A stretch of DNA of 24,221 nucleotides from positions 1 through 24,221 of the IMG/VR virus record IMGVR_UViG_3300021093_000352; one strand, written 5' to 3'. The notes beneath the pieces were generated by a model. It did not search any database and was not told the origin of the DNA. It saw only the letters and a list, made by a program, of their open reading frames with translations. Below are positions 1,167 through 15,644 of the stretch, one piece after another. Numbering within the stretch: position 1 is the first letter of the stretch; every line of letters starts with the position of its first letter. Position numbers and translations under genes: made by a program. The stretch is from a virus.

Positions 1167-2117
1167 TTACTTTTTATTCTTTTTGTAGCCGTGTTTAATA
1201 AAACTATTTACAGATTGTACTATCTTAGTTTCTATTTCTTTATCCATATTCATTGCATTTTCATTGGCTCTGTCCACAGTTTCATCTATGGTTATTCTTA
1301 ATGGACTGTAGATTCTTTTTTCTGCATTCATATTGATGCAGTGAAATTTAGGATTATCAGGATATGACACATTGATTGGATAGGTAGACCCTAGCACTAC
1401 CGTGGCTGTTTTTTCAAAAGCATGTGCAATATGTTGTCCAAGACTGTCGCATCCTAAAAAATGATCGCACTGTTTAATAACAGAAGCCCAGACTCTTACA
1501 TGTACTCCTTGTGGATTGGCCACTGGAAAATTTATCTGATATTTGGAAAAATCTATTGGCGACTCTGTCATAATAATCATAGCATAGGTTTTTCCGAGTT
1601 GTCTTATTAGACTAATTGTATTATCAATTTCAAAACTTCTACCACTAATGTCTATGAAATTATCATCTTGATTCTTGCTCATTCTTCCAAATGGTTGAAA
1701 CACTATAACTTTTTCTTTGCCTGTTTTTTCCTTAACTTCTTTGATCATTTGACGTGCAAATATTAATTCTTCTTTATTAAGAAATATTTGTGGTAATTCT
1801 AATTTTCGTATTCCTTTGTTGTTAATTTCTATATCGTATGCCTGCCCAATGCTGCATTTTTGATTGTAATATTCCCATACTCTGTATGGTTCTGGGCTAA
1901 GAATTTTCCTTGTCAACAGTAGATCTTGAAACAAATTTTTATGCCAAACATCATATGCTCGTGCATGTAGTAGTGGATGTCCTTTGTAGAAATCTGTGCC
2001 ACCTTCGCACACAATTATAAAATCATCTTTAGTATTTTCTTTTGCATATGTATCTAACGCTGATACTGAAGATAATGTTCTACCTGCTCCACCATTTATA
2101 AAAAAAGCACTGTGCAT
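1167..2117 (-). CDS. GT-B glycosyltransferase, family 9/heptosyltransferase-like (copy B)
   Basis: 316 residues, close to the usual length of ADP-heptose:LPS heptosyltransferases (GT9). The N-terminal half begins with FFINGGAGRTL (residues 5-15), in the place of the GT9 'GD' loop, then IIVCEGG and KGHPLL (45-50), as in GT9 proteins. The second Rossmann half has VIVFQPFG (137-144), ASVIKQCDHFLGCDSLGQH (211-229) and VVLGSTYP (240-247), which align with the GT9 'adlvvgnDSGpmHlA...vaLfGpT.P' region. The Asp of the 'GD' loop, proposed as catalytic base in WaaC-type enzymes, is Arg here. The gene starts 1 base after the carbamoyltransferase stop, with no clear Shine-Dalgarno, so translation is probably coupled. 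It is a paralogue of the 314-aa gene on the other side of the carbamoyltransferase; both share EPYRVWEYYNQKC. The fold is fairly certain; the sugar donor and acceptor are unknown. Confidence 0.75.
   Translation of the reverse strand: MHSAFFINGGAGRTLSSVSALDTYAKENTKDDFIIVCEGGTDFYKGHPLLHARAYDVWHKNLFQDLLLTRKILSPEPYRVWEYYNQKCSIGQAYDIEINNKGIRKLELPQIFLNKEELIFARQMIKEVKEKTGKEKVIVFQPFGRMSKNQDDNFIDISGRSFEIDNTISLIRQLGKTYAMIIMTESPIDFSKYQINFPVANPQGVHVRVWASVIKQCDHFLGCDSLGQHIAHAFEKTATVVLGSTYPINVSYPDNPKFHCINMNAEKRIYSPLRITIDETVDRANENAMNMDKEIETKIVQSVNSFIKHGYKKNKK
1853..1898 (-). repeat. near-identical block shared by the two glycosyltransferase genes (copy B)
   Basis: This 46-base stretch, coding the EPYRVWEYYNQKC region, matches 4588-4633 with 3 differences by hand comparison, although the flanking parts of the two paralogues have diverged much more. 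It suggests duplication with local gene conversion or very strong constraint. Confidence 0.7.
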
Positions 2118-2118
2118 T

Positions 2119-3924
2119 TTAGTTAGGAACGTATATTAGTTTCTTGTGTTCGGGAAGATATAGATATTCTATTTTAGAATTAATCAAGGTTCGCACAGCA
2201 TCTTCTAGTGTTTCAACTAATGGTTCTCCGCCCAGATTGAATGAAGTATTGAATATGATCGGCACTTGAGTTTTTTTATAAAAAGCATTAATAAGATTAT
2301 GATAGTGTAGATTTTGTTTTTGCGTGATAGTTTGTATTCTACACGTACCATCCACATGTATAATGCTAGGTATCTGTTCAGCTTTGCCTGGTTTACAATC
2401 CACGGCATACATCATAAATGGACTATCTTTCATACCTCGTAAATCAAACCATTCATGCACGTGTTCTTGCAGTATTGTGCCTGCAAATGGTCGGAAGTAT
2501 TCTCTTTTCTTCACCACATTTACAAAATCTTTGCCGTCAGCGAATCTTGGATCAAACAATAATGATCTATTACCTAAAGCTCTAGGGCCATTTTCAGATC
2601 TACCTTGAAACAGTGCCACAATATTTTTGCCGATTATCAAATCTATTACGTCAGAATCTTGTGCGTCTTTTAGAATTACTTTTTGATTATCACACATAGA
2701 TTGTATATGAGCTATTGAATAATGCCTATCAGGCCCCAAATAAAGAGTATTGTGTGCTACAATGTTTTTGTTAGGTAATATTTGATGATAGAACAAAAGT
2801 GCTGCCCCGATTGCTGTGCCTGCGTCATTACTGATCGGCTCCACATATAAATCAATTTGATCTTTTTGCAAAAATTCTAAGTAAGAATAATTTGCCACAC
2901 AATTTAATCCATAGCCCCCTGATAACACTACTTTTTTCTTACCCGTCATTTGAACAGCTCTGTATATTAGTTTTAAAACCTGTGTTTGTGTCTCCAATTG
3001 ACAATGATAAGCCATGTCTCTGCGATTTTGTAATTTTGTGACGTCATCAAATTCTTTATCTGTGGGGTCTTCTAAGAATTCGAACATTTGTGAATTCACT
3101 AGTGCAGCATTAGGATATGTGGGTAATATTAAATTTCTATTTGATAATTCAGCTTTGGAGTTGCTTTCAAACAAAGGAGGAATGTTTGGATTTTTTTTAC
3201 CATAAGGAAAAAGTCCCATAGTTTTTCCTGCTTCAATAGGCATAAAGCCACAGTACTGAGTAACTGCCTCATAAACTTTCACTATGCCTGCTCTGTCAGA
3301 AAAAACAGCTTCGTGGGTTTTGCCTGGTTCATCTGTAATTTCAGAAGGAAAGTTACGAAATACTGCGCCCATTACAGGTTCCTTGGTGCCGTAATGTTTG
3401 TATAATGAAACAAAATTAGCAGGATAATCACATCCAATAATTGATTCAACTTCCCACACAGTGGTTGGCCCTTGCCTACTGTTGTTAATACCCAAAAATG
3501 TTCCCGCACCATCAACTATAACACTGACTGCACTATCAAAACCACTGCGATAGAAAGCACAGGCAGCATGAAGTTTATGATGTATGTGACTTAAATCAAT
3601 TACCTGTGGGTGATTCATCACGTCTGCTTGTCTATCAATCAATCCAAGTTTGCGAGCTAGACCTGTGTACACATCATCACCGGTAAAATCTACTCTACCT
3701 GCTGTATCTTTAATTTTTTGTGTGTGTGCTATGATCAAATAATCAATTTTGTCAGTGTATTTTAAAATTTCTATCATTGAAGCATAAGGACCTCCATCAT
3801 ATTTGTGTCTGCTGAGTCTTTCTTCTTCCACGCTAAAAATAATGTTGCCATCTTTCAAAAGGCAAACACCAGCATTATGTCCTCTAGTGATGGCGGCTAT
3901 ATATCCAGTAGTTTTACTTGTCAT
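2119..3924 (-). CDS. NodU/CmcH-family O-carbamoyltransferase
   Basis: 601 residues, full length for this family, which moves the carbamoyl group of carbamoyl phosphate, through carbamoyl-AMP, to a hydroxyl of a sugar or similar acceptor. The N-terminal Kae1-like domain shows RGHNAGVCLLKDG (14-26), VEEERLSRHK (32-41), the metal-site motif HHKLHA (115-120), VDGAG (137-141), SGGYGLNCVAN (335-345) and NDAGTAIGAA (366-375). The C-terminal carbamoyltransferase domain shows FQGRSENGPRALGNRSLL (439-456), KKREYFRPFAG (472-482), HVDGTCRIQ (523-531) and FNTSFNLGGEPLVET (558-572). All key blocks look intact. The start is supported by a strong GAGGAG 8 bases upstream (3933-3938); the gene overlaps the upstream glycosyltransferase gene by 11 bases and ends 1 base before the next, so the three form one translational unit. 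Acceptor unknown: phage fibre glycan or host surface sugar are both plausible. Confidence 0.93.
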   Translation of the reverse strand: MTSKTTGYIAAITRGHNAGVCLLKDGNIIFSVEEERLSRHKYDGGPYASMIEILKYTDKIDYLIIAHTQKIKDTAGRVDFTGDDVYTGLARKLGLIDRQADVMNHPQVIDLSHIHHKLHAACAFYRSGFDSAVSVIVDGAGTFLGINNSRQGPTTVWEVESIIGCDYPANFVSLYKHYGTKEPVMGAVFRNFPSEITDEPGKTHEAVFSDRAGIVKVYEAVTQYCGFMPIEAGKTMGLFPYGKKNPNIPPLFESNSKAELSNRNLILPTYPNAALVNSQMFEFLEDPTDKEFDDVTKLQNRRDMAYHCQLETQTQVLKLIYRAVQMTGKKKVVLSGGYGLNCVANYSYLEFLQKDQIDLYVEPISNDAGTAIGAALLFYHQILPNKNIVAHNTLYLGPDRHYSIAHIQSMCDNQKVILKDAQDSDVIDLIIGKNIVALFQGRSENGPRALGNRSLLFDPRFADGKDFVNVVKKREYFRPFAGTILQEHVHEWFDLRGMKDSPFMMYAVDCKPGKAEQIPSIIHVDGTCRIQTITQKQNLHYHNLINAFYKKTQVPIIFNTSFNLGGEPLVETLEDAVRTLINSKIEYLYLPEHKKLIYVPN

Positions 3925-4858
3925 CCTTATTTCTCCTCATCACTTCATTAATCATCCAATTTTCAATTTCTTCATTCATGCTCATTATTAATTCATTTTT
4001 CCTCATTATTCTTTCATCCATAGTGATGCGTATTGGATCATATTCTCTATCTAGCTCACCCATGTCACACACTCTAAAATATGTGCAATCGGGATAGCTG
4101 GTATTAATTGGAAAAGTAGGGCCTAAAATAACTGTGCTTGGTATTTCCATGCAGTAGGCAAGATGTTGTCCCACGCTGTCACAGCCAAAGAAATGATCAG
4201 AATGTTTGATAACTGAAGCCCATTGTCGCAAATTTAATCTTTCAGGCGCAGCTACCTCATCTGTGTATTTTTCACCAGTAAAATCCATGCCAAATTCTGC
4301 CATGATTATTACTGCAAATTTTTCTGCTTGCAATTTTCTTATCAAACTTTTAGTATTTCTATATTCTATACTTCTGCCGGTTTTGTCCACGAAACTGCCA
4401 TCAATGTGTTCTATACCTCGGCCAAATGGTTGAAACACAATCACTTTGTTGTGTTTAATTTTAGTTTTTATTTGTTCAACAATTTTTTTTCCTTGTAAAA
4501 TTTCTTCTTTACTCAAAATAATTGTTGGTTTTGAAAGTTTTCTTATGCCTTTGTTGTTTATTAAAATATCGAATGCTTGGCTTAAATTGCATTTTTGATT
4601 GTAGTATTCCCATACTCTGTATGGCTCTAGGCTCACAACATCTTTACTTTGTAACTTTGTGTGAAATAAATTTTTATGAAATATGTCATATGTTTTTGCA
4701 TCTAATACTGGATGACCTTTCAATATGTCAACTGCACCTTCACACACAACTAAAAAGTCTTTATCTCCTGATTCTTCATGATATTTTTCCAGTGCAGGAA
4801 TAGCACATAAGATTCTACCAATACCACCATTCAAAAAAAATGCTTTGGATCTAACCAT
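3914..4858 (-). CDS. GT-B glycosyltransferase, family 9/heptosyltransferase-like (copy A)
   Basis: 314 residues, first gene of the three-gene sugar-modification unit. Layout matches GT9: FFLNGGIGRILCAIPALEKY (7-26), LVVCEGAVDILKGHPVL (36-52), the shared block EPYRVWEYYNQKC (78-90), KVIVFQPFGRG (138-148), WASVIKHSDHFFGCDSVGQH (213-232) and TVILGPTFP (242-250). The last two correspond to the GT9 nucleotide-sugar region. As in its paralogue, the Asp of the N-terminal 'GD' loop is replaced by Arg. It is preceded by a 56-base gap after the 219-aa gene, has no evident Shine-Dalgarno, and its 3' end overlaps the carbamoyltransferase start by 11 bases. Coding sequence is clearly more AT-rich than the virion genes. 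Substrate unknown; a divergent or inactive member cannot be excluded. Confidence 0.77.
   Translation of the reverse strand: MVRSKAFFLNGGIGRILCAIPALEKYHEESGDKDFLVVCEGAVDILKGHPVLDAKTYDIFHKNLFHTKLQSKDVVSLEPYRVWEYYNQKCNLSQAFDILINNKGIRKLSKPTIILSKEEILQGKKIVEQIKTKIKHNKVIVFQPFGRGIEHIDGSFVDKTGRSIEYRNTKSLIRKLQAEKFAVIIMAEFGMDFTGEKYTDEVAAPERLNLRQWASVIKHSDHFFGCDSVGQHLAYCMEIPSTVILGPTFPINTSYPDCTYFRVCDMGELDREYDPIRITMDERIMRKNELIMSMNEEIENWMINEVMRRNKDDK
3933..3938 (-). promoter_or_regulatory. strong ribosome binding site GAGGAG for the carbamoyltransferase
   Basis: The minus strand reads GAGGAG 8 bases before ATG 3924, inside the last codons of the preceding glycosyltransferase gene. It is one of the best Shine-Dalgarno sequences in the window and fixes this start. 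Confidence 0.8.
4588..4633 (-). repeat. near-identical block shared by the two glycosyltransferase genes (copy A)
   Basis: Partner of 1853-1898: same 46 bases with 3 differences, at the same place in the paralogous gene. The encoded EPYRVWEYYNQKC segment is identical in both proteins. Confidence 0.7.
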
Positions 4859-4914: not shown

Positions 4915-5574
4915 TTAATATACAGGTACTTGATGTTTGAAAGGAATTTTCCAATGCTTTACATTGGCATATTTGGTTGGCACTGCTTTTAACCATGCAA
5001 CATATTCTTGCAGCTTTATTTTATCTTCTGCTGAAATTAAATCTGCCTTTTCAACGAAAGCCTTTTCGATTGCATTGATTTGCACCACTAAACTTGCTAG
5101 GAAACTTTCTCTGCTTAATATGTGCACTCTAAATCCTGGTCTTATCCACGCACCATTTTTGAATTTCATATCAATGTGAAGATATTGCTGACCTATCATA
5201 CCATTGTTGTCGTCCCAACCGTATGTAAAAGTCTCTGGCTTACCATCCTCATCGACTGTGCCAATATCTTCAGAATAATCTTCTACTTTGCCTGTGTCAT
5301 AATAACCAGATATGTAAGCAGCTTCAAATGTGTGCACAGTGGCATCAATTTTTTCATACAATTTGCCTGGTTCTTTAGGATAGCTTGTGAATTTGTCCAT
5401 TTCAACTAAAGAATCTGTGCCAAACACTGTATTTTCTACCACGCCAGTTGACTGATCTACTTTCACTAAAAGATATCTTGGTCCTGTGTATGTGGCAGTG
5501 TAGGTTTTGTTTAGTGCAGTGGTGCCTACGTAAGGCTCATCTGTCAACGGGATTTGAAAAGTCTTCTTAATCAT
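4915..5574 (-). CDS. unknown protein (219 aa), possible fibre-assembly factor
   Basis: 219 residues, no Cys, no signal peptide or membrane segment. The first 150 residues look beta-rich and acidic (for example SEDIGTVDEDGKPE at 101-114), with AWIRPGFRVHILS at 142-154. The last 65 residues look helical: ASLVVQINAIEKAFVEKADL (160-179), then LQEYVAWLKAVP (188-199) and a Pro-rich end. A helix of the type 'L..Y...L..(I/V)P' near the end, followed by Pro-rich sequence, recalls tail-fibre assembly chaperones, and the gene sits directly after three fibre-like genes, the usual place for such a chaperone. The resemblance is weak and I do not claim the family. Two T4-late-like boxes lie in the gap upstream; no Shine-Dalgarno is visible. 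Confidence 0.65.
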   Translation of the reverse strand: MIKKTFQIPLTDEPYVGTTALNKTYTATYTGPRYLLVKVDQSTGVVENTVFGTDSLVEMDKFTSYPKEPGKLYEKIDATVHTFEAAYISGYYDTGKVEDYSEDIGTVDEDGKPETFTYGWDDNNGMIGQQYLHIDMKFKNGAWIRPGFRVHILSRESFLASLVVQINAIEKAFVEKADLISAEDKIKLQEYVAWLKAVPTKYANVKHWKIPFKHQVPVY

Positions 5575-5613: not shown

Positions 5614-6576
5614 CTAGCTCTCCACAAATCTGATACGCATGCCACCCCAACCACCTCTTATGCCGTGATCTCTAACATCTGGGCAGGGTTGTGGAGGCAA
5701 TCCACCTGCTCCGATTGGTAGGTATGGTGAACAACCTTGCATTTCATAACATCCGCAGGATCTATCTGATCTCCAACAATAACTGTTAAACGAACCCCTT
5801 GTAGGCTGTTTATTGATACCTGCCAATGATGAAAAATAAGCTGGCAATTGACTGCCTGACATACCACTAGTGTGTATTCCACCGTCAGTGGTATTGAAAG
5901 TGATACGTGCACCGGAGTCTGCAAACATATATGATGGAATTGGTGCATGATGATAGAACTGACATGGACAAGTTGGATAACATCCTAAGAAGGAACTACA
6001 TCCTATAATGCCGCAACAGTTGATGTCACCACCATAGGCCAGTCCTTCCCAAGCTCCATTACATTGATTGCAAATGATACCGCAGTGATCGTTGATGGGA
6101 CCTGTGCCACAAAATCCATTGGCATAAAAACAACACCACATGCTGGTGCTGGTGCTGCAAAAAGATATTCCACCCTTGCCGCCTCTAGCACACATACAAC
6201 CATTGGAATCGGTGCTGGTCCAACATACTGTGCTGGGATCACCGCAACCTTGAAAACACAATGAGTGTGCATAAGGTGGGAAACCCACGCAACCACACAC
6301 ATAATTTGTCGTGGTCACTAGAAATGATTTTCTTGCATAACCACCTGCATTACCGGGAATTCCTCCTCCGCAACAACACATACGTGCTCCTGGTCCACCT
6401 GCTCCCCAAATTTCTAAATGCACACAGCCACTGGCTGGTGGTTTCCAACAAAATCCATTGCAGTATTGTGTGTACATGGTGCCTGGACAAAAGGCATAAA
6501 TTACGCCGGTCTCTAAATTATTTTCAGTAACACTGTACTGTACTCTAGATGATATAATACTTTTTAATCCTGGCAT
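5614..6576 (-). CDS. cysteine- and glycine-rich fibre-like protein, paralogue 3
   Basis: 320 residues with 32 Cys by hand count (about 10 percent), exceptional for a phage protein. After an N-terminal leader of about 50 residues comes a glycine-rich adhesin-type core: LEIWGAGGPGARMCCCGGG (54-72), then NGCMCARGGKGGISFC (125-140), WCC (147-149), CGIICNQC (165-172), GCYPTCPC (198-205), SCGCYEMQGC (273-282) and CPDVRDHGIRGGWGGMRIRF (298-317). The 'EIWGAGG...' opening and the ending '(I/M)RI(K/R)(F/Y)' are typical of glycine-rich domains in phage tail fibres and tip adhesins; the Cys pattern is not. Start ATG overlaps the previous stop as TAATG. It is most divergent of the three in its last third (no NWSG segment). 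Likely role, from context: tip or decoration of a receptor-binding fibre. Whether the Cys form disulfides or bind metal cannot be told. Confidence 0.8.
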   Translation of the reverse strand: MPGLKSIISSRVQYSVTENNLETGVIYAFCPGTMYTQYCNGFCWKPPASGCVHLEIWGAGGPGARMCCCGGGIPGNAGGYARKSFLVTTTNYVCGCVGFPPYAHSLCFQGCGDPSTVCWTSTDSNGCMCARGGKGGISFCSTSTSMWCCFYANGFCGTGPINDHCGIICNQCNGAWEGLAYGGDINCCGIIGCSSFLGCYPTCPCQFYHHAPIPSYMFADSGARITFNTTDGGIHTSGMSGSQLPAYFSSLAGINKQPTRGSFNSYCWRSDRSCGCYEMQGCSPYLPIGAGGLPPQPCPDVRDHGIRGGWGGMRIRFVES

Positions 6577-7577
6577 TAGTTTAACCCCAATAATCCTGTT
6601 CCAATGTATTTAATTCTAATAATACCGTGTCCTCCACGATAAGCATGGTCTCTCACATCTGGACAAGGATGCGGTGGTGGACCACCATGTCCTGGAGGTG
6701 AAAAAGTTATACAACCATTCATGTTGTAACATCCGCAATATCTATTACCAGTCCAACAGGCAGTGTAGTGTCCTCCATGTGTGGGGTTTCGTGCTGCCAA
6801 CCCTAATGTGTGAATGTAACCATACATGGAACCGCCGCTCCAGTTGTACATTCCGTTGTCTGTGTCATTGGTATATGTGATCCATGCACCGCAATCTGCA
6901 TACTGTTTAGGTGGAGTTCTCATGTGATACCAGAATGCACAAGGGCATGATGGATAACAGCCAAAGAAACTTACACAGCTGAATCCGCCTGCCATGTTGC
7001 AGGTTCCTCCATATGATTGTGCTTGATGGATAGCACAACCTGGTCCTCTATAGTTGCACACAATTGCGCAGTTGTCTCCAGCACATCTTGTGTGACAAAA
7101 ACCGTTTGCTGCATAACAACAGTAGGCAGATGTAGAAGTTGAACAGTAGCTAAATCCACCTTGACCACCTTCTGCACACATACAACCGTTGGTACCATTG
7201 CCTTGCCAACATATTCCTGTTGATTCTGATCTGCCTCTGTAACATAAATCGTCTGAGTTTCCGCAACTGATACCTACGTTGCCAAATATACAACAACCAA
7301 TTGTGACGTTCAATGTTCTGCTGGAGTATGCTCCAGGATTTCCTGGTAGTCCATATCCACAACAACACATCTTAGCTCCAGATCCACCTGCACCCCAAAT
7401 CTCTACCAGTGCTGTGCCTGTGCCTGGCGAAATCCAACACACACCGCAACAAAAGTTGGTGCCTACTGTTGTGCCAGGATTGTATGCCCAGATTCTGCCT
7501 TCTTCAGTGTTTTGTTCCAATCCTTGAAATTGAAAACTTAATCTTTGTGTTTCTAAATATGTTCTTAAACTTGGCAT
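6576..7577 (-). CDS. cysteine- and glycine-rich fibre-like protein, paralogue 2
   Basis: 333 residues, 32 Cys by hand count. Same plan as its neighbours: a leader containing RIWAYNPGT (28-36), VEIWGAGGSGAKMCCCGYG (58-76), NGCMCAEGGQGGFSYCSTST (130-149), YCC (152-154), GCYPSCPC (206-213), NWSGGS (245-250), YCGCYNMNGC (280-289), and PCPDVRDHAYRGGHGIIRI (304-322). Four bases separate it from paralogue 1, and it overlaps paralogue 3 by one base, so the three are probably translated from one message by reinitiation. Shine-Dalgarno is weak (GGG-type upstream). The closing segment has 8 extra residues beyond the IRIKYI end compared with paralogue 1. Known biology: glycine-rich sandwich domains serve as receptor-binding tips in some phages. 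Inferred here: a fibre tip or head/tail decoration protein. Confidence 0.8.
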   Translation of the reverse strand: MPSLRTYLETQRLSFQFQGLEQNTEEGRIWAYNPGTTVGTNFCCGVCWISPGTGTALVEIWGAGGSGAKMCCCGYGLPGNPGAYSSRTLNVTIGCCIFGNVGISCGNSDDLCYRGRSESTGICWQGNGTNGCMCAEGGQGGFSYCSTSTSAYCCYAANGFCHTRCAGDNCAIVCNYRGPGCAIHQAQSYGGTCNMAGGFSCVSFFGCYPSCPCAFWYHMRTPPKQYADCGAWITYTNDTDNGMYNWSGGSMYGYIHTLGLAARNPTHGGHYTACWTGNRYCGCYNMNGCITFSPPGHGGPPPHPCPDVRDHAYRGGHGIIRIKYIGTGLLGLN

Positions 7578-7581
7578 ATCA

Positions 7582-8565
7582 TTAACCCGCTATAAATTTA
7601 ATTCTGATTGCACCGTTGCCACCTCTGCTGGCGTGATCTCTCACTCCTGGACATGGATGTGGTCCTGGTGATGGGAATCCTGGTGGAAACAACATTTGAC
7701 AACCTTCATTTTCATAACAACCACAGTTGCCGCTAAAGCCCCAACAGGTTGCAAATTGCACGCCCATCTGAGGCCATCTGCTGGCCGCTGACAGTGCATT
7801 AACATATTGTCCTCTGCCTTGTCCCGACCAATTGGCAAAACCATTGCCGTCATCTGAGTTGTAACTTACTATTACGCCAGACTTGGCAAAATATCCTGGA
7901 GGACCTTGCATGTGAAAATGTGTGGAACACGGACATGAACTGCCGCTTGCTCCTAAAAAACTTACGCAACTGAAACCTGCATTACAATTTACTACTCCTC
8001 CATATGCCTGAGCACACCAACCACCAGAACAACATTTGTTGCAGACTATGCCACAACTGCCGTTGACTCCTAATGTAGAATAAAATCCGCCTGATAAAAA
8101 ACAACAGTATGCATTGGTTCCTGTAGAACAATAAGAAATTCCTCCTCTGCCGCCTTGAGCACACATACAACTTTGTCCTGCAGATGTACCATTAGGATAA
8201 ATTGTAACTCCTGTGGGATCGCTGCAACCTCTAAAACAGAGTGCAGAAGAGTTGTTGCAGGCCATACCTACTTGTCCACAGATGTAACCGCAACATGTTA
8301 GACTGACTGTGTTTCTTGAATACGCTCCGGGATTTCCTGGAGTGCCAAATCCACAACAGCACATTTGTGCTCCAGATCCACCTGCTCCCCATATTTCTAT
8401 AATTGCTGTGCCTGGCTGACAAGGTTTGAAACAGATGCCATGATAAAATGCATCGAAGTTTGGACCTGGTTGATACATGAAGATTCGACCTGACTCTATA
8501 TTCGTTTCCACAATCTGTGGGAACGTTGGATTTTTGGTCGGTATCAATGTTGATAAAGCCGGCAT
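7582..8565 (-). CDS. cysteine- and glycine-rich fibre-like protein, paralogue 1
   Basis: 327 residues, 30 Cys by hand count. First of the tandem triplet. Landmarks: RIFMYQPGP (27-35), IEIWGAGGSGAQMCCCGFG (56-74), SCMCAQGGRGGISYC (132-146), CGIVCNKCC (171-179), CPCSTHFHM (211-219), NWSGQG (245-250), CGCYENEGC (281-289), HPCPGVRDHASRGGNGAIRI (303-322). About two thirds of Cys positions can be lined up with paralogue 2 by eye, so the cysteines are conserved and not random. AAGGA lies about 11 bases before the ATG, supporting this start. No signal peptide is present, consistent with cytoplasmic synthesis and assembly into a virion. No catalytic motif is visible. Function as receptor-binding or decoration protein is inferred. 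Confidence 0.8.
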   Translation of the reverse strand: MPALSTLIPTKNPTFPQIVETNIESGRIFMYQPGPNFDAFYHGICFKPCQPGTAIIEIWGAGGSGAQMCCCGFGTPGNPGAYSRNTVSLTCCGYICGQVGMACNNSSALCFRGCSDPTGVTIYPNGTSAGQSCMCAQGGRGGISYCSTGTNAYCCFLSGGFYSTLGVNGSCGIVCNKCCSGGWCAQAYGGVVNCNAGFSCVSFLGASGSSCPCSTHFHMQGPPGYFAKSGVIVSYNSDDGNGFANWSGQGRGQYVNALSAASRWPQMGVQFATCWGFSGNCGCYENEGCQMLFPPGFPSPGPHPCPGVRDHASRGGNGAIRIKFIAG

Positions 8566-8601: not shown

Positions 8602-8934
8602 TTATACTGCGCCCACTACCCAACCATAAGTTGCTCCGGTGTAAATCAATGTGATGATTGCACCATTCAAGTCAATTGTTAGATTATCAGCCGCCCCATT
8701 TATCAAACTGCCATTTCGTGCCACAGTGATGTTGTTAGTTGCTGAAGACGCACCAATGTCAATAATTTGGATGTTGTCTCCTTCAACTAAACTGGCAGTG
8801 GCTGGCAGCGTGATGGTAAAAGCACCACCAGCTGAGCTAGCTAATATTCTATCATTGACCAAAGCACTGTAGGTTGTGGTTACTGAACGATTCGTAACAC
8901 CTGCTGTACCGGTTGTAGATATATATCTTCCCAT
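8602..8934 (-). CDS. small beta-rich virion/fibre domain protein (110 aa)
   Basis: 110 residues. It consists of one domain of a type that often forms the C-terminal part of marine phage fibres: ILASSAGGAFTITLPATAS (30-48), then GDNIQIIDIG (53-62), NNITVARNG..INGAADNLTI (67-87) and TLIYTGATYGWVV (94-106). The pattern 'TITLPA ... G..I.I.D ... NNITV.R.G..ING....L..D..GA...L.Y.G...GW' is familiar to me from fibre and baseplate-associated proteins of tailed phages; here it stands alone as a gene. A late box (8957-8964) and AAGGA 8 bases before the ATG support the start. Role inferred: structural or adhesive virion component. Confidence 0.78.
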   Translation of the reverse strand: MGRYISTTGTAGVTNRSVTTTYSALVNDRILASSAGGAFTITLPATASLVEGDNIQIIDIGASSATNNITVARNGSLINGAADNLTIDLNGAIITLIYTGATYGWVVGAV

Positions 8935-8978: not shown

Positions 8979-9299
8979 TTACAGTGTTGATGTTTCAATA
9001 CCATAAACCACGCAACTAGCTGTTGATCCCGACGCATATGCCACTATTTTTTGTGCAGCTGATAATACCAAACCAGTTCTTTCTAGAACTCCCTTGGGAT
9101 TTACTTCCACATCATACTCAATGTATTCACCATTTAGTGGTGTCGCTGCATCAGCGATAGCCAATCTAAATGCTTGCATAGCATTGCCTCTGTTTAAGAA
9201 GTTAACAGCCACAACAGCAAAAGTGTCTGCTGGACAGGTGTACACCGTTGTGAGTGTGCCTGCTGCCAGAGCGCTTGAACCTAATCTTCCTGTTGCCAT
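8979..9299 (-). CDS. small virion-type protein (106 aa)
   Basis: 106 residues, MATGRLGSSALAAGTLTTVY at the N-terminus, all-beta by appearance, with NGEYIEYDVEVNPKGVLERT (56-75) and a closing strand. Length and layout (MAT..., 'GT..(T/K)VY', a central 'EY/YYI..V' strand, a 'G..L' turn and a final beta strand) resemble the 109-aa protein at 23212-23541, so the two may be distant paralogues. Such proteins are found near the fibre genes of T4-like marine phages and are probably virion components. A strong AAGGAG 6 bases before the ATG (9306-9311) fixes the start. No enzymatic motif. Confidence 0.72.
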   Translation of the reverse strand: MATGRLGSSALAAGTLTTVYTCPADTFAVVAVNFLNRGNAMQAFRLAIADAATPLNGEYIEYDVEVNPKGVLERTGLVLSAAQKIVAYASGSTASCVVYGIETSTL

Positions 9300-9317: not shown

Positions 9318-12300
9318 TTATCCTTGTAAGAAGTAGCCCATGGACAATGGACCACCTGTTACGCCCCTTGTGAAATTCACAGGAGCACCAAAATTTATTG
9401 TCACTCCAGTGGTGGTTTCAATTGTAGAAGCATATATGGTGATCAGACCAGCCGTGATCTGGTTCACATTCAAGCTGCTGGCTCCACCACCAATTTGACT
9501 TGCTATATATGTTCTAATGGCTCTCTGAGTAGGCACTATTTGGTCGCTGTTAGCCGCCATTGTACCATCTGTAGAGAACTCATTGATTGAAGCACTGGTA
9601 CCACCTAGTACTAGTTCTCCCAACTGAAGTTCTTGTAGTCCTGAAATATTAAATGCGTCTGCATTTAGTGTGGCCACACCTGTGCTCTGCTCTACAGAGA
9701 ACAGATCGCCAACTCTAAAATTACCATCCTGGTCAGTGGAAGTAAAGAAAACTCTACCACCACCATTTTCCACAGTTTCATTTGCGGATATAGGATTTTG
9801 TGTAGGCAATCCTGGATAATTGGTTTCTGAAAAATTACCTGTGCCTATGTCTAAGAAATCGTGTCCTGTTAGACGTATCTGTGAATATCTTCTTCTAATT
9901 GTGACTGTATCACCATGTGCTGGAGATTCACTTACTCTTAATTCTGGACTTATTTGCAACAGTGCTGTGAAAGGATATTGACTTCCTAAGAAATTTTGAA
10001 CACTTACTAATTTGTAATACTCACCAGCCACACTGGCAAATTCTACGTTAGAACCTGCTATTGGTATTTCAGTTAGACCTTCCACTTGAATATATTTTCC
10101 AGACTGTAGTGCATCTCTATAACCACCAAAAGTGGTCACAGTGCCTGCTGATGCAGTATAAGTGCCGTATGTGGTTGAGTTGACAGGAATTGATAATGCT
10201 TCATCAATGTATAGACTGAAAGTGGTTGCTGACAACACTGAGATGTAATACCATACACCTGTGTTCAATTCAAAAATACCTGCCACATTGTCAAATTGCA
10301 CTTTGTTGCCTGTGGTAAATGTGTGTGCTGTTGACGTGGTCACCACTGCAGGATTAGCATTGGTTACACCACTCACTGTTTTTTGAATGCCATTGTCAGT
10401 GATTGTGGTGGCTGCTGTAACAAAAGCTAGACCTCTATTTGTAAAAGTAGGTTGTGCTAATACTCCGTTGCCGATAAAAACATTTAATGGTGCTTCTACA
10501 GTGTTGCTTGGATCCACTATGGTTACAGTCGGTGCAGTCACGTAGCCTGATCCAGGATTTATGATTCTAATTGAACTAATTTTGTTTGTGGTCACTATTG
10601 CTCTTGCCACTGCAGTATCACCTGTGGGCGAAGCACTGACAACCAGTCTAGGCACATATTCATATGTAGTGGTGCCATCCAGCAATGCTTCTGTGCCTTG
10701 CACAATCATACTGCCCACATAGCTCGCCACTGTCAGTGTGAGGTTGTTGGCCGGAGTAGCGCCACCCAAACTGGCTCCTGGAATGGTGATAGTGTCGCCT
10801 ACCACATAACCGGAACCCTCTGTGGTCACTGTGACAGTGGTATTGGCTGAAGAGTATGAAGTGAGTGCGCCTGTTTTTTGTATAGTAAATATGGCTCCTG
10901 TGCCTGTGCCGCTGGTGGCCGATTGAGATACTGCTGTGTAGGTAGCTGCGCCCACTATGCTGGTACCGCTGACTGAGAATGTGGTTTCTGTGGTGAGTGC
11001 ACCTGTGCCTGCTGTGGACAATGCCACTGCAGCTCCACCTGAAGTGGTACTGACTCTAAATTGTGTTGCTGTAAGTCCTGAAGCTATCACATAATACTGT
11101 GTGTATGGACTCAAGCCTCCAAAAGTTCTTCCTTCAAATTGCACCGCTAAACCTGCATACAGAGCTGATGTGCTTGCGCATGTGAGTAGGTTGGTGCCAG
11201 TAGTGGTGGCAGTCACAGTGGTCTTCACCAAATGATCGTATCCAGCTTTGTGTAGATACATGGTGCCTGTATCATCGGCAGTGATGTCAAAAGTTGAACC
11301 TCCTGGCGAAGTAGAAATACTAAAAGTTGTGGCACTTGCTATGGTTTTAATATAATAAATGGTGACGTTTGTTGGCGTTGTGACCACACCTCCAAAAGAT
11401 GTACCGCTGAACATGATAGGCATGTTCAATTGCAGACTGGTTGTGGAAGATGTAGTGAATAAGTCTGATGAAGCTGTGGCAATGGTCACAGTTAAATTTG
11501 TAAAAGATGGCACTGCAACTTTAGCTAATTTTGTGCCAGCATTATATCCTACGACATATGCATACTGTCCAGCTCCTAAACCTTCTTTTATCCATAGTGC
11601 CATACCTGGCAATTGTGAAGCTAATGAAGTATCAGTGTTGGATATTGTAATTGTTTTGTCTGTGCCGGTCTGTGCCACATTGGTGTTGGATTGATATCCG
11701 TCTCCTCCAAAATCACTTTCAGGAGATACCACAGTTTCATCCAATCTGATCTGATAAACAGATCCGTTCTTTACAGTGGCAGTTGTGCCTGCTAATCCAT
11801 ATCCATCACCTGATATAGTGATTGTGGCTGAAGTGTTGTAATTTACTCCTGCGTTGCCGTATTCTAAAGCTAGTATTCTATCACCATCTGTAAATGTGTT
11901 GGCTACCACAGCATCAGTGCTATGATTGTCCACAGTGGCTTCAATTGGTGTCTCTGCTGAATCTCCACCTTCAGACACTGATCCAAAATCTCCATATGAA
12001 TTATTACCATTGGTTGCACGCACTTTGCCACCATTTTCAGCAAGATATCCGATGTGGTTATAATAAGTGAATACAGAAACTAATTCAGATCTACCTAGGT
12101 TAGTTACCCAGAAGCCAATACCATCTGATAAAATCTGTGTGAAATCATTTGCAACCACAGAGTCATTGCCGCTATTGTGAAGAGCGCCGTCAACTTTTAA
12201 TCCTACGCAACCTGTGCCAAATGTTGAAACGTTCTGCACATATGGTGATTTGTTTGTAATCCAAACTTCCTCATGCGCTGGTCCCCAACCTGGATCTAAA

Positions 12301-15300
12301 GAAACATAAGCTCCAGCTGTGGGTCTTTGTGTGCCATAGGCGTTTGCTGCGCCTAGTGTGCCAGACAATCCTTGCAATGTGCAGTTTCTTAGTCCTGTGC
12401 CGTTACGCATGTAGAACATGTCTGATAGTGTACTACCTGTCACTGAAATTTCATAATATTTGGCTGCTACGATTGATCGATAATTACCTGTGTATATCAA
12501 GTCATGCGTGATTGCATCTATGTATTCTCTAAGATCTCTTTCACAGAATGCTCTATTTGCAGCATTGAAATATGTGATAAATGCGCCTGGGTTATTTTTT
12601 CTTACATATTCTATGGATTCCTGTACTAAAAATTCTTTATTTTCAATCAATCTTAACACAGCATCTGTGTAACCCACTGCTGTCTCTGGAGTGTTGCTGC
12701 CGCTGATTGTTGGCAGAGGACTAGAACTGTCACCTATTATTTTGTAATTTATCCAGTCATATATGTCGTCAGCTATTGCCACTGCTGCATTGGCAGCTGC
12801 CACTGAACCTGTTGGAGCATTTAAATCCTGTGCGCCTGCTAGAGCCACAGTGCCAGAACCAACTGCTGTGACTGTGAATGATGCTGCCAAGCTGGAAGCA
12901 CCCAATAGTCCAGCACCTATGGTCACTGTGTTGCCCACAGCATAATTAGAACCTGCATTGCTGCCTACCACTAATGAAGTTATCACGCCGCCAGCAGCTA
13001 CAATAGCAGTGAATGTGGCTGATGAACCTGCACCACTGGTTGAAGTGGCCACGTCAGTATAAGTGCCTGCAGTTCTATTCACGTCCGTGGCTGGTGTGGT
13101 AAATCCTGTGATATAACCTGCTGCAGTTGGAGTAATTGCAATATTTCTTATAATGTCATCAATTATATTGCGTAATCTATCAATGCCTGCTAAAGAATAA
13201 GGTGTGTCAGCAGCAGTGGTTACAGGACCTCTTGGTCTTATGTTGGTGCTTCTCAATTCATCTCCAACAATGGCTGTGCTTTCTCTTACGCGGATAGGAC
13301 AAAATTCAAAATAAATGCCTGTTTTAACAAAAATACAATTGTTAGCAATTATTTCGCTTGGTACGTCATCAATGTCACCAGCATCTATTGCATCTATGAT
13401 TATGTCCATAAGGTCTTCAATAATACCTTGAGCCTGTGGTTCTTCATAAATGGCTCCATCAAATACTTGTGGTACTGTGCCTTGCAGTGCAGTGTATGTG
13501 TTGTCATTAGATATAGCTGAATCAATCACAGTTTTAGCAAATTCAATAGCAGCACTTGTTTCACTTTCTGTGCCTGGAATATATGTGCCGCTGCCAGTGT
13601 AGTAACTGATAGCTGCCAATCTTGATCTTTCATTACCGCCATGTCCCAAATCCCACAACACTGCATCAATGATCTGCCCCAAATCTCTTTGGCACTTGAC
13701 TTGATCATACAGTAGTTTCACAACCATTGTGCCTGCTGCTGTGGATAGAGCCTCGGCTGTACCGCCAACAGTGAGGCTCACTTTGAATTGTGTGGCACTG
13801 AAACCACTGGCAATAATAAAATATGTGGTGGAGGTAGTGATGCCACCAAATGTGGTGCCTGTGAATTCCACTGTCATGCCCACTCTTAAATTAGCAGTGC
13901 TGTCGCAGGTAATAAGATCAGGAGCAGTTGTATTTGTACAATTGGCCTGGAATGTGTCATTAATATATTGAATGGTTTCTCTCTGAATGAATGCTTTGTT
14001 TCTCAATAATAAATTTCTTGCTGATGGATACAATGGCCCATACTCCACCTGTCTAGCTGCGTATTGTATGGTCTTCCATGGTTGAGTCAAAGTGGATCCA
14101 TAATCTGGAGCAGGAAGGTCAGTGCCTGATGGAGCAACATACCAAACGTTGTTTATCTTTCCAAAATATCCCCATTCTGGTAAAGTACCTGCTGCATTTA
14201 CTAAAAGTGTTTGACCAGGCAGTCCAATAGGCAATCGCACAGGCCCTGATGGACCATAAATCAAAAGATCTCCTTGTGTGGTGAGTGCTAAACTTTCAGC
14301 ACCGCCCGACAACAATTGCCAGTATGTGCCTGTGTCTACTCCCACACCTGGTGGATAGTCTGGCTGAGTGATTGTGGCAGGTCCCACGTTGTTTGATGTG
14401 TGTCCTAGAATACAAATATAAGTGTTTGTGGTAATTGTTGTGCCACGCACCACATCACCTTTGTCATACAGAGTAGCATTGGCCCAATTGCCTTTCCAAT
14501 ATATGCCTTCATTAAGTTTGTCCCAATAGGTCACATTGGGTGGTCTGTTGCCAGTGGTATCTGTAATTGCTATGTAGGTGAATCCACCCAGGCGCACCAC
14601 ATCTCCAATTTTGTATGCAGTAGCGTTGTTGTAATCACCTCTAAGATTAAATCCTGTGACAAATAATTTCCAATCTGCAGGATAACTTACTGGAGCCTTG
14701 TTGATATTATTTGTTGCGGCCACATATCCATAACCACCATAAGTTACAAAATCACCTATTTGGTAATTGGTAGCTGAGTTCCAACTGTCTTCAAATTCTA
14801 AACCTGGTACAAACACTGCCCAGTTTGCCTGATCGGCAGTCAACGTTGTGGTACTTACATGCAGTGTGGTACAGATCCATAAACTTGGTCCCCACTTCAC
14901 CACATCATTTATTTTGTATCTGTTTGTCGCTGTCCACGCACCTTTGTATTCGATTCCTTTGTGTAGATAATCCCATTTGGCTTGATCTGCTTCTAGTCCG
15001 CCTGCGGCTAGAGTGGCTGATGCATTCGATGTGTGTCCAGTGTTACACACATATAATTGTCCACCATATCTCACCACGTCACCTACTTTGTACCTTGTGC
15101 TTACAGTCCAAACATTAAGCCAATTGAATCCTTTGGAGAAAATTTCCCATTTGGCTGAATCAGCTTCTAGTCCTAATGCGGTTGTGGCTGCAGATGTGTG
15201 ATAAGTGATACAAGTGTAGATGTAGGCACCGTATCTCACAAGATCATTTACTTTGTATCGAGTGGAGATGCTCCAATCACCTTTGTAATCAAAACCTTCA

Positions 15301-15644
15301 GAAAATAAATCCCATTTGGCAAGGTCGTTTTCCAGTCCCAATGAAGTTGTGGCAGCTGATGTGTGTCCTTCGTTGGCTATGTATAGATAGCCGCCATATT
15401 TGACTATGTCATTTACTTTGTATGTGGTTGTGACTGACCAACTATCTTTCCATTCTTGACCATCACTCCATAAATTCCAATAACCTGCATCTAAATCAGT
15501 TTGGAAAGTTCCGCTGGTGTGTCCTTCCACACACACATAGGTCCTACCACCATATCTGATTACATCATCAATAAAATACTCAATAGCAGTGTACCATACA
15601 CTTTTCCAAATAAATCGAATCCTACCTAATTTGAACTCTGCCAT
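9318..15644 (-). CDS. giant modular virion fibre protein (2108 aa)
   Basis: 2108 residues. In order: MAEFKLGRIRFIW start; eight repeats of about 50-65 residues (1-448); a linker with LRIPIG-like RLPIGLPGQTLL (470-481); a helical module split in two (545-568 and 648-682); start of a pectate-lyase-like beta-helix, CIFVKTGIYFEFCPI (770-784) and AIVGDELRSTNIRP (791-804); a long insertion with a second helical module (about 1000-1064); the rest of the beta-helix (1075-1227) with NKSPYVQNVSTFGTGCVGLK (1131-1150) and ATNGNNSYGDFGSV (1210-1223); a string of beta modules; and a conserved C-terminus with STDQDGNFRVG (1969-1979) and IVPTQRAIRTYI (2036-2047). It is a paralogue of the 1777-aa protein. No catalytic residues of a lyase can be pointed to. 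Probably a long adhesin or baseplate-attached fibre. A late box lies 25 bases upstream; the Shine-Dalgarno is poor. Confidence 0.88.
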   Translation of the reverse strand: MAEFKLGRIRFIWKSVWYTAIEYFIDDVIRYGGRTYVCVEGHTSGTFQTDLDAGYWNLWSDGQEWKDSWSVTTTYKVNDIVKYGGYLYIANEGHTSAATTSLGLENDLAKWDLFSEGFDYKGDWSISTRYKVNDLVRYGAYIYTCITYHTSAATTALGLEADSAKWEIFSKGFNWLNVWTVSTRYKVGDVVRYGGQLYVCNTGHTSNASATLAAGGLEADQAKWDYLHKGIEYKGAWTATNRYKINDVVKWGPSLWICTTLHVSTTTLTADQANWAVFVPGLEFEDSWNSATNYQIGDFVTYGGYGYVAATNNINKAPVSYPADWKLFVTGFNLRGDYNNATAYKIGDVVRLGGFTYIAITDTTGNRPPNVTYWDKLNEGIYWKGNWANATLYDKGDVVRGTTITTNTYICILGHTSNNVGPATITQPDYPPGVGVDTGTYWQLLSGGAESLALTTQGDLLIYGPSGPVRLPIGLPGQTLLVNAAGTLPEWGYFGKINNVWYVAPSGTDLPAPDYGSTLTQPWKTIQYAARQVEYGPLYPSARNLLLRNKAFIQRETIQYINDTFQANCTNTTAPDLITCDSTANLRVGMTVEFTGTTFGGITTSTTYFIIASGFSATQFKVSLTVGGTAEALSTAAGTMVVKLLYDQVKCQRDLGQIIDAVLWDLGHGGNERSRLAAISYYTGSGTYIPGTESETSAAIEFAKTVIDSAISNDNTYTALQGTVPQVFDGAIYEEPQAQGIIEDLMDIIIDAIDAGDIDDVPSEIIANNCIFVKTGIYFEFCPIRVRESTAIVGDELRSTNIRPRGPVTTAADTPYSLAGIDRLRNIIDDIIRNIAITPTAAGYITGFTTPATDVNRTAGTYTDVATSTSGAGSSATFTAIVAAGGVITSLVVGSNAGSNYAVGNTVTIGAGLLGASSLAASFTVTAVGSGTVALAGAQDLNAPTGSVAAANAAVAIADDIYDWINYKIIGDSSSPLPTISGSNTPETAVGYTDAVLRLIENKEFLVQESIEYVRKNNPGAFITYFNAANRAFCERDLREYIDAITHDLIYTGNYRSIVAAKYYEISVTGSTLSDMFYMRNGTGLRNCTLQGLSGTLGAANAYGTQRPTAGAYVSLDPGWGPAHEEVWITNKSPYVQNVSTFGTGCVGLKVDGALHNSGNDSVVANDFTQILSDGIGFWVTNLGRSELVSVFTYYNHIGYLAENGGKVRATNGNNSYGDFGSVSEGGDSAETPIEATVDNHSTDAVVANTFTDGDRILALEYGNAGVNYNTSATITISGDGYGLAGTTATVKNGSVYQIRLDETVVSPESDFGGDGYQSNTNVAQTGTDKTITISNTDTSLASQLPGMALWIKEGLGAGQYAYVVGYNAGTKLAKVAVPSFTNLTVTIATASSDLFTTSSTTSLQLNMPIMFSGTSFGGVVTTPTNVTIYYIKTIASATTFSISTSPGGSTFDITADDTGTMYLHKAGYDHLVKTTVTATTTGTNLLTCASTSALYAGLAVQFEGRTFGGLSPYTQYYVIASGLTATQFRVSTTSGGAAVALSTAGTGALTTETTFSVSGTSIVGAATYTAVSQSATSGTGTGAIFTIQKTGALTSYSSANTTVTVTTEGSGYVVGDTITIPGASLGGATPANNLTLTVASYVGSMIVQGTEALLDGTTTYEYVPRLVVSASPTGDTAVARAIVTTNKISSIRIINPGSGYVTAPTVTIVDPSNTVEAPLNVFIGNGVLAQPTFTNRGLAFVTAATTITDNGIQKTVSGVTNANPAVVTTSTAHTFTTGNKVQFDNVAGIFELNTGVWYYISVLSATTFSLYIDEALSIPVNSTTYGTYTASAGTVTTFGGYRDALQSGKYIQVEGLTEIPIAGSNVEFASVAGEYYKLVSVQNFLGSQYPFTALLQISPELRVSESPAHGDTVTIRRRYSQIRLTGHDFLDIGTGNFSETNYPGLPTQNPISANETVENGGGRVFFTSTDQDGNFRVGDLFSVEQSTGVATLNADAFNISGLQELQLGELVLGGTSASINEFSTDGTMAANSDQIVPTQRAIRTYIASQIGGGASSLNVNQITAGLITIYASTIETTTGVTINFGAPVNFTRGVTGGPLSMGYFLQG
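10131..10379 (-). repeat. beta module 'tTGN.V.F....G..ELNTG..YY' (residues 1756-1838 of the 2108-aa protein)
   Basis: One copy of a 70-80-residue beta module seen repeatedly in the giants: '...TTS.....TG..V.F....G....T.YY(V/I)......T.F.(V/L)S...GG'. Other copies are residues 571-643, 1385-1465 and 1474-1551 of the same protein and 953-1028 of the 1777-aa protein. This copy is the most divergent. The pattern resembles small beta domains common in phage fibres. Confidence 0.5.
10992..11225 (-). repeat. beta module (residues 1474-1551 of the 2108-aa protein)
   Basis: Contains LAVQFEGRTFGGLSPYTQYY (1499-1518) and GLTATQFRVSTTSGGAAVAL (1523-1542). Closest to the copy at residues 571-643, with which it shares the '(G/S).YYVIASG(L/F)(T/S)ATQF(R/K)VS' core. 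Confidence 0.65.
11250..11492 (-). repeat. beta module (residues 1385-1465 of the 2108-aa protein)
   Basis: Contains LNMPIMFSGTSFGGV (1406-1420) and YYIKTIASATTFSISTSPGG (1430-1449). It directly precedes the copy at 1474-1551, giving a tandem pair. Confidence 0.6.
11964..12422 (-). repeat. shared beta-helix core, copy in the 2108-aa gene
   Basis: Residues 1075-1227 are the longest conserved block between the two giants; the partner is residues 684-835 of the 1777-aa protein (18526-18981). Identical runs include GNNSYGDFGSV, LVSVFTYY and NDFTQ(V/I)LSDGIGFWV. This is the most conserved functional core of the pair. Confidence 0.8.
12453..12668 (-). repeat. helical module, intact copy (residues 993-1064 of the 2108-aa protein)
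   Basis: Pattern 'L..NK.F(I/L)Q.E.(I)(E/Q)Y(V/I) ... C.RDL...(I)DA...DL...GN.(R)S..AA.YY'. The other copy lies at 13599-14012 and is interrupted by a beta module. Function unknown; amphipathic helices suggest a trimerisation or packing element. Confidence 0.65.
13599..14012 (-). repeat. helical module, split copy (residues 545-682 of the 2108-aa protein)
   Basis: LLLRNKAFIQRETIQYI (545-561) and CQRDLGQIIDAVLWDLGHGG (651-670) with RSRLAAISYY (673-682) match the intact copy at residues 993-1064. Between them sits a complete beta module (571-643; bases 13716-13934), so this copy looks like a domain into which another was inserted. Confidence 0.62.
14301..15644 (-). repeat. eight N-terminal carbohydrate-binding-like repeats of the 2108-aa protein
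   Basis: Repeats start near residues 1, 63, 118, 173, 231, 282, 332 and 381. Pattern: 'W...(T)..Y..(G/N)D(V/L)V(R/K)YGG..Y(V/I)C...HTS.........W.....G'. This is the look of chitin-binding type 3/CBM5-12-like domains (aromatic residue, 'Y..GD.V.Y.G..Y', closing Trp). Binding of sugars is inferred, not shown. Confidence 0.7.

Follow-up and report, generated by a model that had tools for sequence, protein, structure and literature searches.

The minus strand of the window, a virus record of 24,221 bases (IMG/VR IMGVR_UViG_3300021093_000352), encodes a T4-like tail module, as indicated by a match to PF07880 (gp9/10 N-terminal domain) in 21392-22699 (28.7 bits; cut-off, 25). The subject of this study is a triplet of adjacent genes in this module whose products are rich in both cysteine and glycine; according to their position they are designated A, B, and C:

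7582..8565, minus strand: position A, cysteine-rich, glycine-rich predicted tip protein (327 amino acids, 30 cysteines; PHROG_4205, E 3e-5)
6576..7577, minus strand: position B, cysteine-rich, glycine-rich predicted tip protein (333 amino acids, 32 cysteines; PHROG_4205, E 3.3e-9; modelled with AlphaFold)
5614..6576, minus strand: position C, cysteine-rich, glycine-rich predicted tip protein (320 amino acids, 32 cysteines; PHROG_4205, E 1.5e-6)

A conserved cysteine-rich family

Reading of the open reading frames (ORFs) confirmed the original prediction of three adjacent minus-strand paralogues of 320 to 333 amino acids with 30 to 32 cysteines each, and the four motifs that it had listed, i.e., EIWGAGG.GA.MCCCG, CMCA.GG.GG.S(F/Y)C, CPC, and CGCY...GC, were all found in A, B, and C, which share 50% (A) and 45% (C) identity with B. 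Cysteine accounts for 9.2 to 10.0% of their residues vs. 0 to 2.2% in the other long ORFs of this strand that do not overlap, a range from which shadow frames overlapping real ORFs (up to 5.2% cysteine) were excluded. The binomial probability of at least 30 cysteines in 320 residues at a background of 1% is 7.9e-20, and chance composition as the origin of the cysteine richness was rejected on the basis of this value and of the contrast with the other ORFs of the window. Over their whole length, the three paralogues contain 16 to 17% glycine and about 10% cysteine.

All three proteins match PHROG_4205, the library function of which is "unknown," and scans of them with Pfam and NCBIfam gave no match, including none over the Pfam cut-off for PF21722 (Gly_rich_2). 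The latter is recognised in the third copy of Synechococcus phage S-CAM1 (40.4 bits; cut-off, 24.3) and in 8 of 111 family members at E values up to 0.1. Repeated IMG/VR scans recovered 13 loci with B alone, 213 relatives with an alignment of the three proteins, and 133 relatives with a protein of Sf-FS3 (80 loci kept in each of the last two), so that the idea of a one-off oddity of the window was discarded; the loci L015 to L017, which are copies of the window, were set aside. A tblastn search with B against isolate phages had no match at E 1e-5, and S-CAM1 was reached at E 6e-4. The triplets of the isolates carry 36, 31, and 25 (S-CAM1, open frames), 36, 35, and 24 (S-CAM3), 28, 28, and 25 (Sf-FS3), and 29, 28, and 30 cysteines (S-SSM7), and Prochlorococcus phage P-SSM2 has two copies with 36 each, which were the only proteins of this kind (10.1% cysteine; next long ORF, 4.0%) in a scan of its whole genome. 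The three window genes thus belong to a large, unannotated family that is present in many IMG/VR contigs and in isolates of the Kyanoviridae. The single match of a scan of genome contigs, located on a contig of a Euryarchaeota metagenome-assembled genome, perhaps represents a stray phage contig. Sequence searches of the PDB returned nothing useful, and among the literature matches listed (open PMC papers) no description of these cysteine-rich triplets was found.

Cysteine is under strong selection in this family. In the 111-row alignment, 21 of the 30 columns with a cysteine consensus are at least 90% cysteine by weight (glycine, 27 of 49), and the CCC motif is nearly invariant. The ratio of nonsynonymous to synonymous changes (133 pairs with 75 to 93% identity) is 0.16 at cysteine codons vs. 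0.27 at glycine codons and represents the lowest value among the 18 residues with synonymous codons. A comparison of 20 proteins from four diverged groups revealed 16 columns with cysteine in at least 12 proteins, with C134 retained in 20 and C73 and C213 in 19 of them; in this comparison, the alignment itself may favour the matching of cysteine with cysteine, and the second protein of S-CAM1 was used from its annotated start, which makes it shorter than its open frame. The conserved cysteine positions proposed at the outset are hence borne out by alignment columns, codon ratio, and group comparison, and a free replacement of most cysteines was looked for and not found inside the family.

Predicted fold, copy number, and position lineages

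The AlphaFold model of B, to which the evidence on the fold refers, was built from a 111-sequence alignment in which similar sequences were collapsed and which excluded the rows from the phages collection, and it reached a mean predicted local distance difference test (pLDDT) value of 80.6 and a predicted template-modelling (pTM) score of 0.83. Its counterpart is the tail fibre of Pam3: Foldseek matched 7ypx_A with an E value of 2.4e-5, and the VIA comparison gave a Z score of 15.2 (196 aligned residues, 3.2 Å), with a second Pam3 fibre comparison at 14.9 (196 aligned residues, 3.1 Å). It is followed by the tail tip of Bxb1 (9d93_Qa; Z 11.9) and the TG domains of ALK/LTK (Z up to 8.9), while the first row beyond these three has a Z score of 3.8. 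Pam3 gp24 has been described as a trimeric receptor-binding fibre with TNF-like and glycine-rich domains and a chaperone, gp25 (PMC9608196). The predicted model of B combines a TNF-like with a glycine-rich fold of this type, and the adhesin-like glycine-rich core of the original prediction thus finds its match in a known fibre tip. As for the N-terminal alpha-helical docking domain of Pam3 gp24, the model of B has a helix at residues 4 to 17 that is predicted at low confidence (block pLDDT values of 64 and 51). In the BFVD, proteins of S-CAM3 and P-SSM2 rank first and second for the model, and Syn9 gp38 (Q0QZJ0) ranks third.

The usual number of copies is three. After removal of near-copies and exclusion of edge-cut ORFs, exactly three genes were counted in 32 of 39 complete loci of the window type (two in five, one in two) and in 17 of 19 complete loci of the Sf-FS3 profile group, the exceptions being AG-345-F15 and P-SSM2. 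Searches of whole records of the window type found three in 12 of 13 and 9 of 11 records, together 21 of 24, counts that are not independent because some records are near-copies of one another. In these 21 records the three copies lie in tandem or are split 1+2; the split arrangement, with parts about 21 to 23 kb apart and a total of three, occurs in six records (G034 to G038 and G040). Inspection by eye placed the lone family member of loci L060, L074, and L080 shortly after a gp23-like gene and before a very large protein, and loci L072 and L076 are grouped with these single-member loci; in the records of L080 and L076 (G034 and G035), the remaining two members are located about 22 to 23 kb away. 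The A2 profile matched three genes in six stretches in S-CAM1 and three in S-CAM3; it is weak for Sf-FS3-like records (G047, 1 stretch; G048, 3; G049, 0) and detects 0 in P-SSM2 and 1 in Sf-FS3, although these phages have two and three genes, respectively, when their ORFs are read directly.

Phylogenetic trees were calculated without edge-cut ORFs and with identical or similar sequences collapsed (L018, L019, and L094 were omitted from the second one). The position labels change 10 times on the tree of window-type and S-CAM sequences (shuffled, 43.5), in which long branches are flagged for the S-CAM rows, and 3 times on the tree of the second group (shuffled, 40.3). In both groups, the gene positions hence largely represent their own conserved lineages.

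A putative heterotrimeric tip and the role of its cysteines

Taken together, we consider it somewhat more likely than not that the three genes encode the paralogous chains of one heterotrimeric receptor-binding tip, which is probably stapled by disulfides. Each chain would, like the Pam3 fibre, consist of a TNF-like beta-sandwich bearing a lattice of glycine-rich loops, and three different chains would form an obligate 1:1:1 heterotrimer, perhaps with the aid of the adjacent PHROG_9740 protein during trimer assembly. Phage proteins fold in the reducing cytoplasm; the roughly 10% cysteine would staple the loop lattice, most likely by disulfides, once the particle has left this compartment, and the result would be a rigid, durable tip. 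The hetero-oligomer suggested in the original prediction gains indirect support from the usual count of three and the position-specific lineages.

The closest competitor accepts the same fold and location and assumes three separate homotrimeric tips that act as alternative or mosaic receptor binders. Pam3 gp24 is indeed a homotrimer (PMC9608196), P-SSM2 has two copies rather than three, and the paralogues have diverged to 45 to 50% identity. Nevertheless, three copies are retained in 21 of the 24 window-type records, even where they are split across two loci, and the positions mostly form their own lineages, unlike a repertoire that turns over. The retention of three distinct paralogues is more in keeping with an obligate heterotrimer than with homotrimers whose repertoire changes, and the homotrimeric alternative, including the alternative receptor tips of the original prediction, is regarded as rather unlikely, albeit worth keeping in mind.

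Several observations weigh against the disulfide-stapled heterotrimer. The permutation test of cysteine co-change on the tree gave borderline P values of 0.051, 0.067, 0.203, and 0.036 for four statistics (33 columns), and an alanine control was equally strong, with P below 0.001 on one co-change statistic. Summed over a triplet, the number of cysteines is even for 60 of 123 triplets, and full pairing within one trimer is therefore unsupported. The structural proteins of Agrobacterium phage Milano are reported to contain on average 2.1% cysteine, which is a fifth of the level in the triplet. Three copies are not universal, since P-SSM2 has exactly two and the AG-345-F15 fragment two; among the window-type records of 78 to 91 kb, G025 holds one and G039 and G041 hold two each, the missing copies of which may lie off the contig. 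The position pattern is broken by the clade of L061, L063, L079, and L084 and by the C genes of L082 and L093, and the orthology of A, B, and C across subfamilies is unproven because all S-CAM rows cluster together. With respect to the putative assembly factor, a PHROG_9740 profile built from the window recognised no more than 2 relatives among the 27 loci of the Sf-FS3 profile group, and the structural model of the window protein had no Foldseek match at E values up to 0.001 and no match to a chaperone.

Two cysteine pairs, 55-88 and 123-201, stood out in the co-change analysis, and the number of cysteines is even in 55 of 111 proteins, i.e., without an excess of even numbers. Among 11 records, VKOR was not found (0 of 11) with a working control, the negative result for Erv1 (0 of 11) is uninformative since its control was silent, and glutaredoxin, which was present in seven, is too common to be telling. 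Virions with disulfide networks have been reported for the Agrobacterium phages Milano and 7-7-1, and the baseplate of Pam3 is said to be disulfide-linked to the fibres (as cited in the E217 paper).

A second competitor concerns the cysteines themselves, which might bind metal in zinc or copper clusters that stabilise the tip even before it leaves the reducing cytoplasm, where folding takes place. In ten proteins, the spacings CC (54 observed, 29.7 shuffled) and CxC (47 vs. 30.1) are enriched over shuffled sequences, and the near-invariance of the CCC motif would also suit this explanation. However, CxxC, the usual ligand pair for zinc and iron-sulphur clusters, is not enriched (32 vs. 29.8), and the content of aromatic residues and glycine is unlike that of metallothioneins. 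Moreover, the solved cysteine-rich virions of Milano and 7-7-1 are reported to have disulfides. Metal binding is hence judged to be clearly unlikely.

Neighbouring genes and comparison with known systems

The triplet is flanked by the following genes:

2119..3924, minus strand: Nol-like carbamoyltransferase (PF16861, E 4.9e-57; phrog_1601, E 7.8e-161)
3914..4858, minus strand: GT9-like (heptosyltransferase-like) protein (Glyco_transf_9, E 0.0069, below the Pfam cut-off)
4915..5574, minus strand: cysteine-free PHROG_9740 protein of 219 amino acids, directly downstream of the triplet (weak match, E 3.1e-4)
8602..8934, minus strand: cysteine-free tail-associated protein of 110 amino acids, upstream (best PHROG of function unknown, then tail protein families)
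8979..9299, minus strand: tail-fibre-like protein of 106 amino acids (phrog_11338, tail fiber protein, E 2.1e-9)
9318..15644, minus strand: giant fibre-like protein of 2108 amino acids

The gene order of S-CAM1, i.e., fibre, proteins of about 106 and 109 amino acids, three cysteine-rich proteins, a 241-amino-acid protein, the GT9-like gene, and the carbamoyltransferase, is the same as in the window. Of 91 loci (window included), 81 have a relative of the PHROG_9740 protein next to the family genes, and the ten misses comprise four loci that end at the triplet, five single-copy loci, and AG-345-F15; the window-built profile recognised it in 38 of 38 loci of the window type. Two relatives follow one another downstream of the triplet in L031, L049, L056, L070, and others. 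The AlphaFold model of this protein (pLDDT 96.6) has a beta-rich N-terminal part and two C-terminal helices, its best VIA row (Z 7.0) is confined to residues 151 to 219, and a check for chaperones gave a match to Caudo_TAP in 1 of 57 members (E 0.018). Its position and the layout of a beta part plus a helical part make it a candidate fibre-assembly chaperone.

Further neighbours were counted in 65 non-redundant loci, each of which has two or more copies and at least 4.5 kb of downstream sequence. Upstream of the triplet, relatives of the 110-amino-acid protein are present in 61 and relatives of the giant protein in 60 of them, and the giant protein might represent a shaft module. The giant fibre-like proteins of the window (9318-15644, 2108 amino acids; 15697-21030, 1777 amino acids) contain N-terminal tandem modules of the type W..YKVND.V.YGG..Y.C...HTS, which, by eye, look like repeated carbohydrate-binding-type modules.

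Downstream, both the GT9-like gene and the carbamoyltransferase lie within 6 kb in 64 of the 65 loci (exception, L171), which brings up another explanation for the cysteines, namely, that they serve as attachment sites of a phage-made modification, e.g., an S-linked sugar that the GT9-like protein would transfer and the neighbouring enzyme would carbamoylate. In line with this, the GT9-like gene led to the previously unseen triplet of S-SSM7 among the isolates and to other cysteine-rich proteins, of whatever family, in AG-345-O18 (L258 4024-7166; 758 amino acids with 73 and 290 amino acids with 31 cysteines) and AG-345-P14 (L259 5105-5962; 282 amino acids with 26 cysteines). However, the GT9 assignment falls below the curated cut-offs, with NCBIfam heptosyltransferase scores far under theirs, and the enzymes could just as well target lipopolysaccharide or other residues of the fibre. 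Starting from GT9 loci in IMG/VR, the cysteine-rich family was present in 68 of 80, a test biased by its query, which came from the GT9 genes of cysteine-rich loci, and by its restriction to the 80 best among 538 relatives; the 12 loci without the family comprise seven with less than 4 kb of upstream sequence and five with 9 kb and a different arrangement. Beside two distant GT9-like genes (Aeromonas HJ05 and Vibrio D505) and the carbamoyltransferase of S-CAM8, no cysteine-rich ORF was found within 8 kb (0 of 3). The modification is therefore deemed very improbable, and just as little credence is given to the combined version of an obligate heterotrimer, widespread in T4-like phages, whose cysteines carry an S-linked carbamoylated sugar rather than, or besides, disulfides.

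Several side observations concern the sugar genes. In the window (1167-4858), the Nol-like carbamoyltransferase is flanked by two GT9-like genes, and genes near the triplets of S-CAM1, S-CAM3, and S-SSM7 bear heptose or phosphoheptose annotations; a carbamoyl-heptose decoration of the virion or of the host surface is possible. A different cassette occurs in L313, L321, L323, L333, L336, and L340, where one or two proteins with an N-terminus like MKRLFAFGCSYTSYSWPTWANFLG come after the GT9-like gene. Where the contig continues, these MKRLFAFGCSYTSYSWPTWANFLG cassettes include a carbamoyltransferase, and cysteine-rich genes are absent on that strand.

A cyanophage host was considered for the window and is not supported. 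The photosystem family PF00124 was found in 0 of 13 and 1 of 20 related records (many of them fragments), the sole match being the S-CAM1-like G022. Among the matches listed (best 12 of 2482), the gp23 of the related 364-kb contig G015 resembles those of Vibrio phage 2.275.O (72.6%), Sinorhizobium phage Phosso (70.5%), and PA5oct-like Pseudomonas phages (69.1%), and a search for gp23 in two of the closest contigs of the window was negative (0 of 2).

The known fibre tips of phages are mostly homotrimers and poor in cysteine. If the proposed heterotrimer is real, its three chains would give the receptor-binding module three distinct faces and a chemistry that is unusual. Many metagenomic phages would share it with isolates such as S-CAM1 and S-SSM7, whereas the model phage P-SSM2 would have a version made of two proteins. 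Proteins annotated as hypothetical in well-studied cyanophages would thus become the subject of a testable tail-tip hypothesis, which raises the questions of whether oxidation is needed for binding of the tip and whether redox state or sugar modification controls infection; the conserved transferase genes offer direct access to the latter question in S-CAM1, S-SSM7, or P-SSM2. For specialists, the retained count of three and the approximately 30 strictly conserved cysteines per chain should come as a surprise.

The cysteine-rich triplet is a real and widespread feature that is kin to a known tail-fibre tip with the fold of Pam3 gp24, and our results suggest that its novelty lies in three dedicated paralogues with about 10% cysteine in a predicted tip. 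Among the isolates, S-CAM1, S-CAM3, S-SSM7, Sf-FS3, and P-SSM2 share the locus order of the window and have 24 to 36 cysteines per protein. They differ in that their cysteine-rich genes are annotated as hypothetical, the S-CAM1-like rows are 25 to 31% identical to B, and P-SSM2 has two copies with a longer N-terminal stretch. Syn9 gp38, whose gene follows those of putative fibres within the tail module and whose length agrees with that of the BFVD entry, has the same predicted fold in a cysteine-poor version (2 cysteines in 266 amino acids); cysteine is thus not required for the fold. Pam3 gp24 (PDB 7YPX/7YFW) shares the TNF-like plus glycine-rich fold and the role as a myophage tail fibre, but it is one protein acting as a homotrimer compared with three paralogues here, and its tip domain contains 39% glycine, with the word "cysteine" absent from the paper text (PMC9608196), compared with about 10% cysteine here. 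Milano and 7-7-1 are comparable as myophages with cysteine-rich virions, for which disulfide networks have been reported; their cysteine content is 1.4 to 2.6% (proteome and structural proteins) and is distributed over capsid, sheath, and baseplate, in contrast to the 10% in the predicted fibre tip. A precedent for the proposed assembly is provided by the tripartite tail of virophage DSLV2, which is reported to be a heterotrimer of three tail proteins encoded in a row; this tail belongs to a virophage, has a T4 gp37-like fold, and is described in a paper whose text does not contain the word "cysteine."

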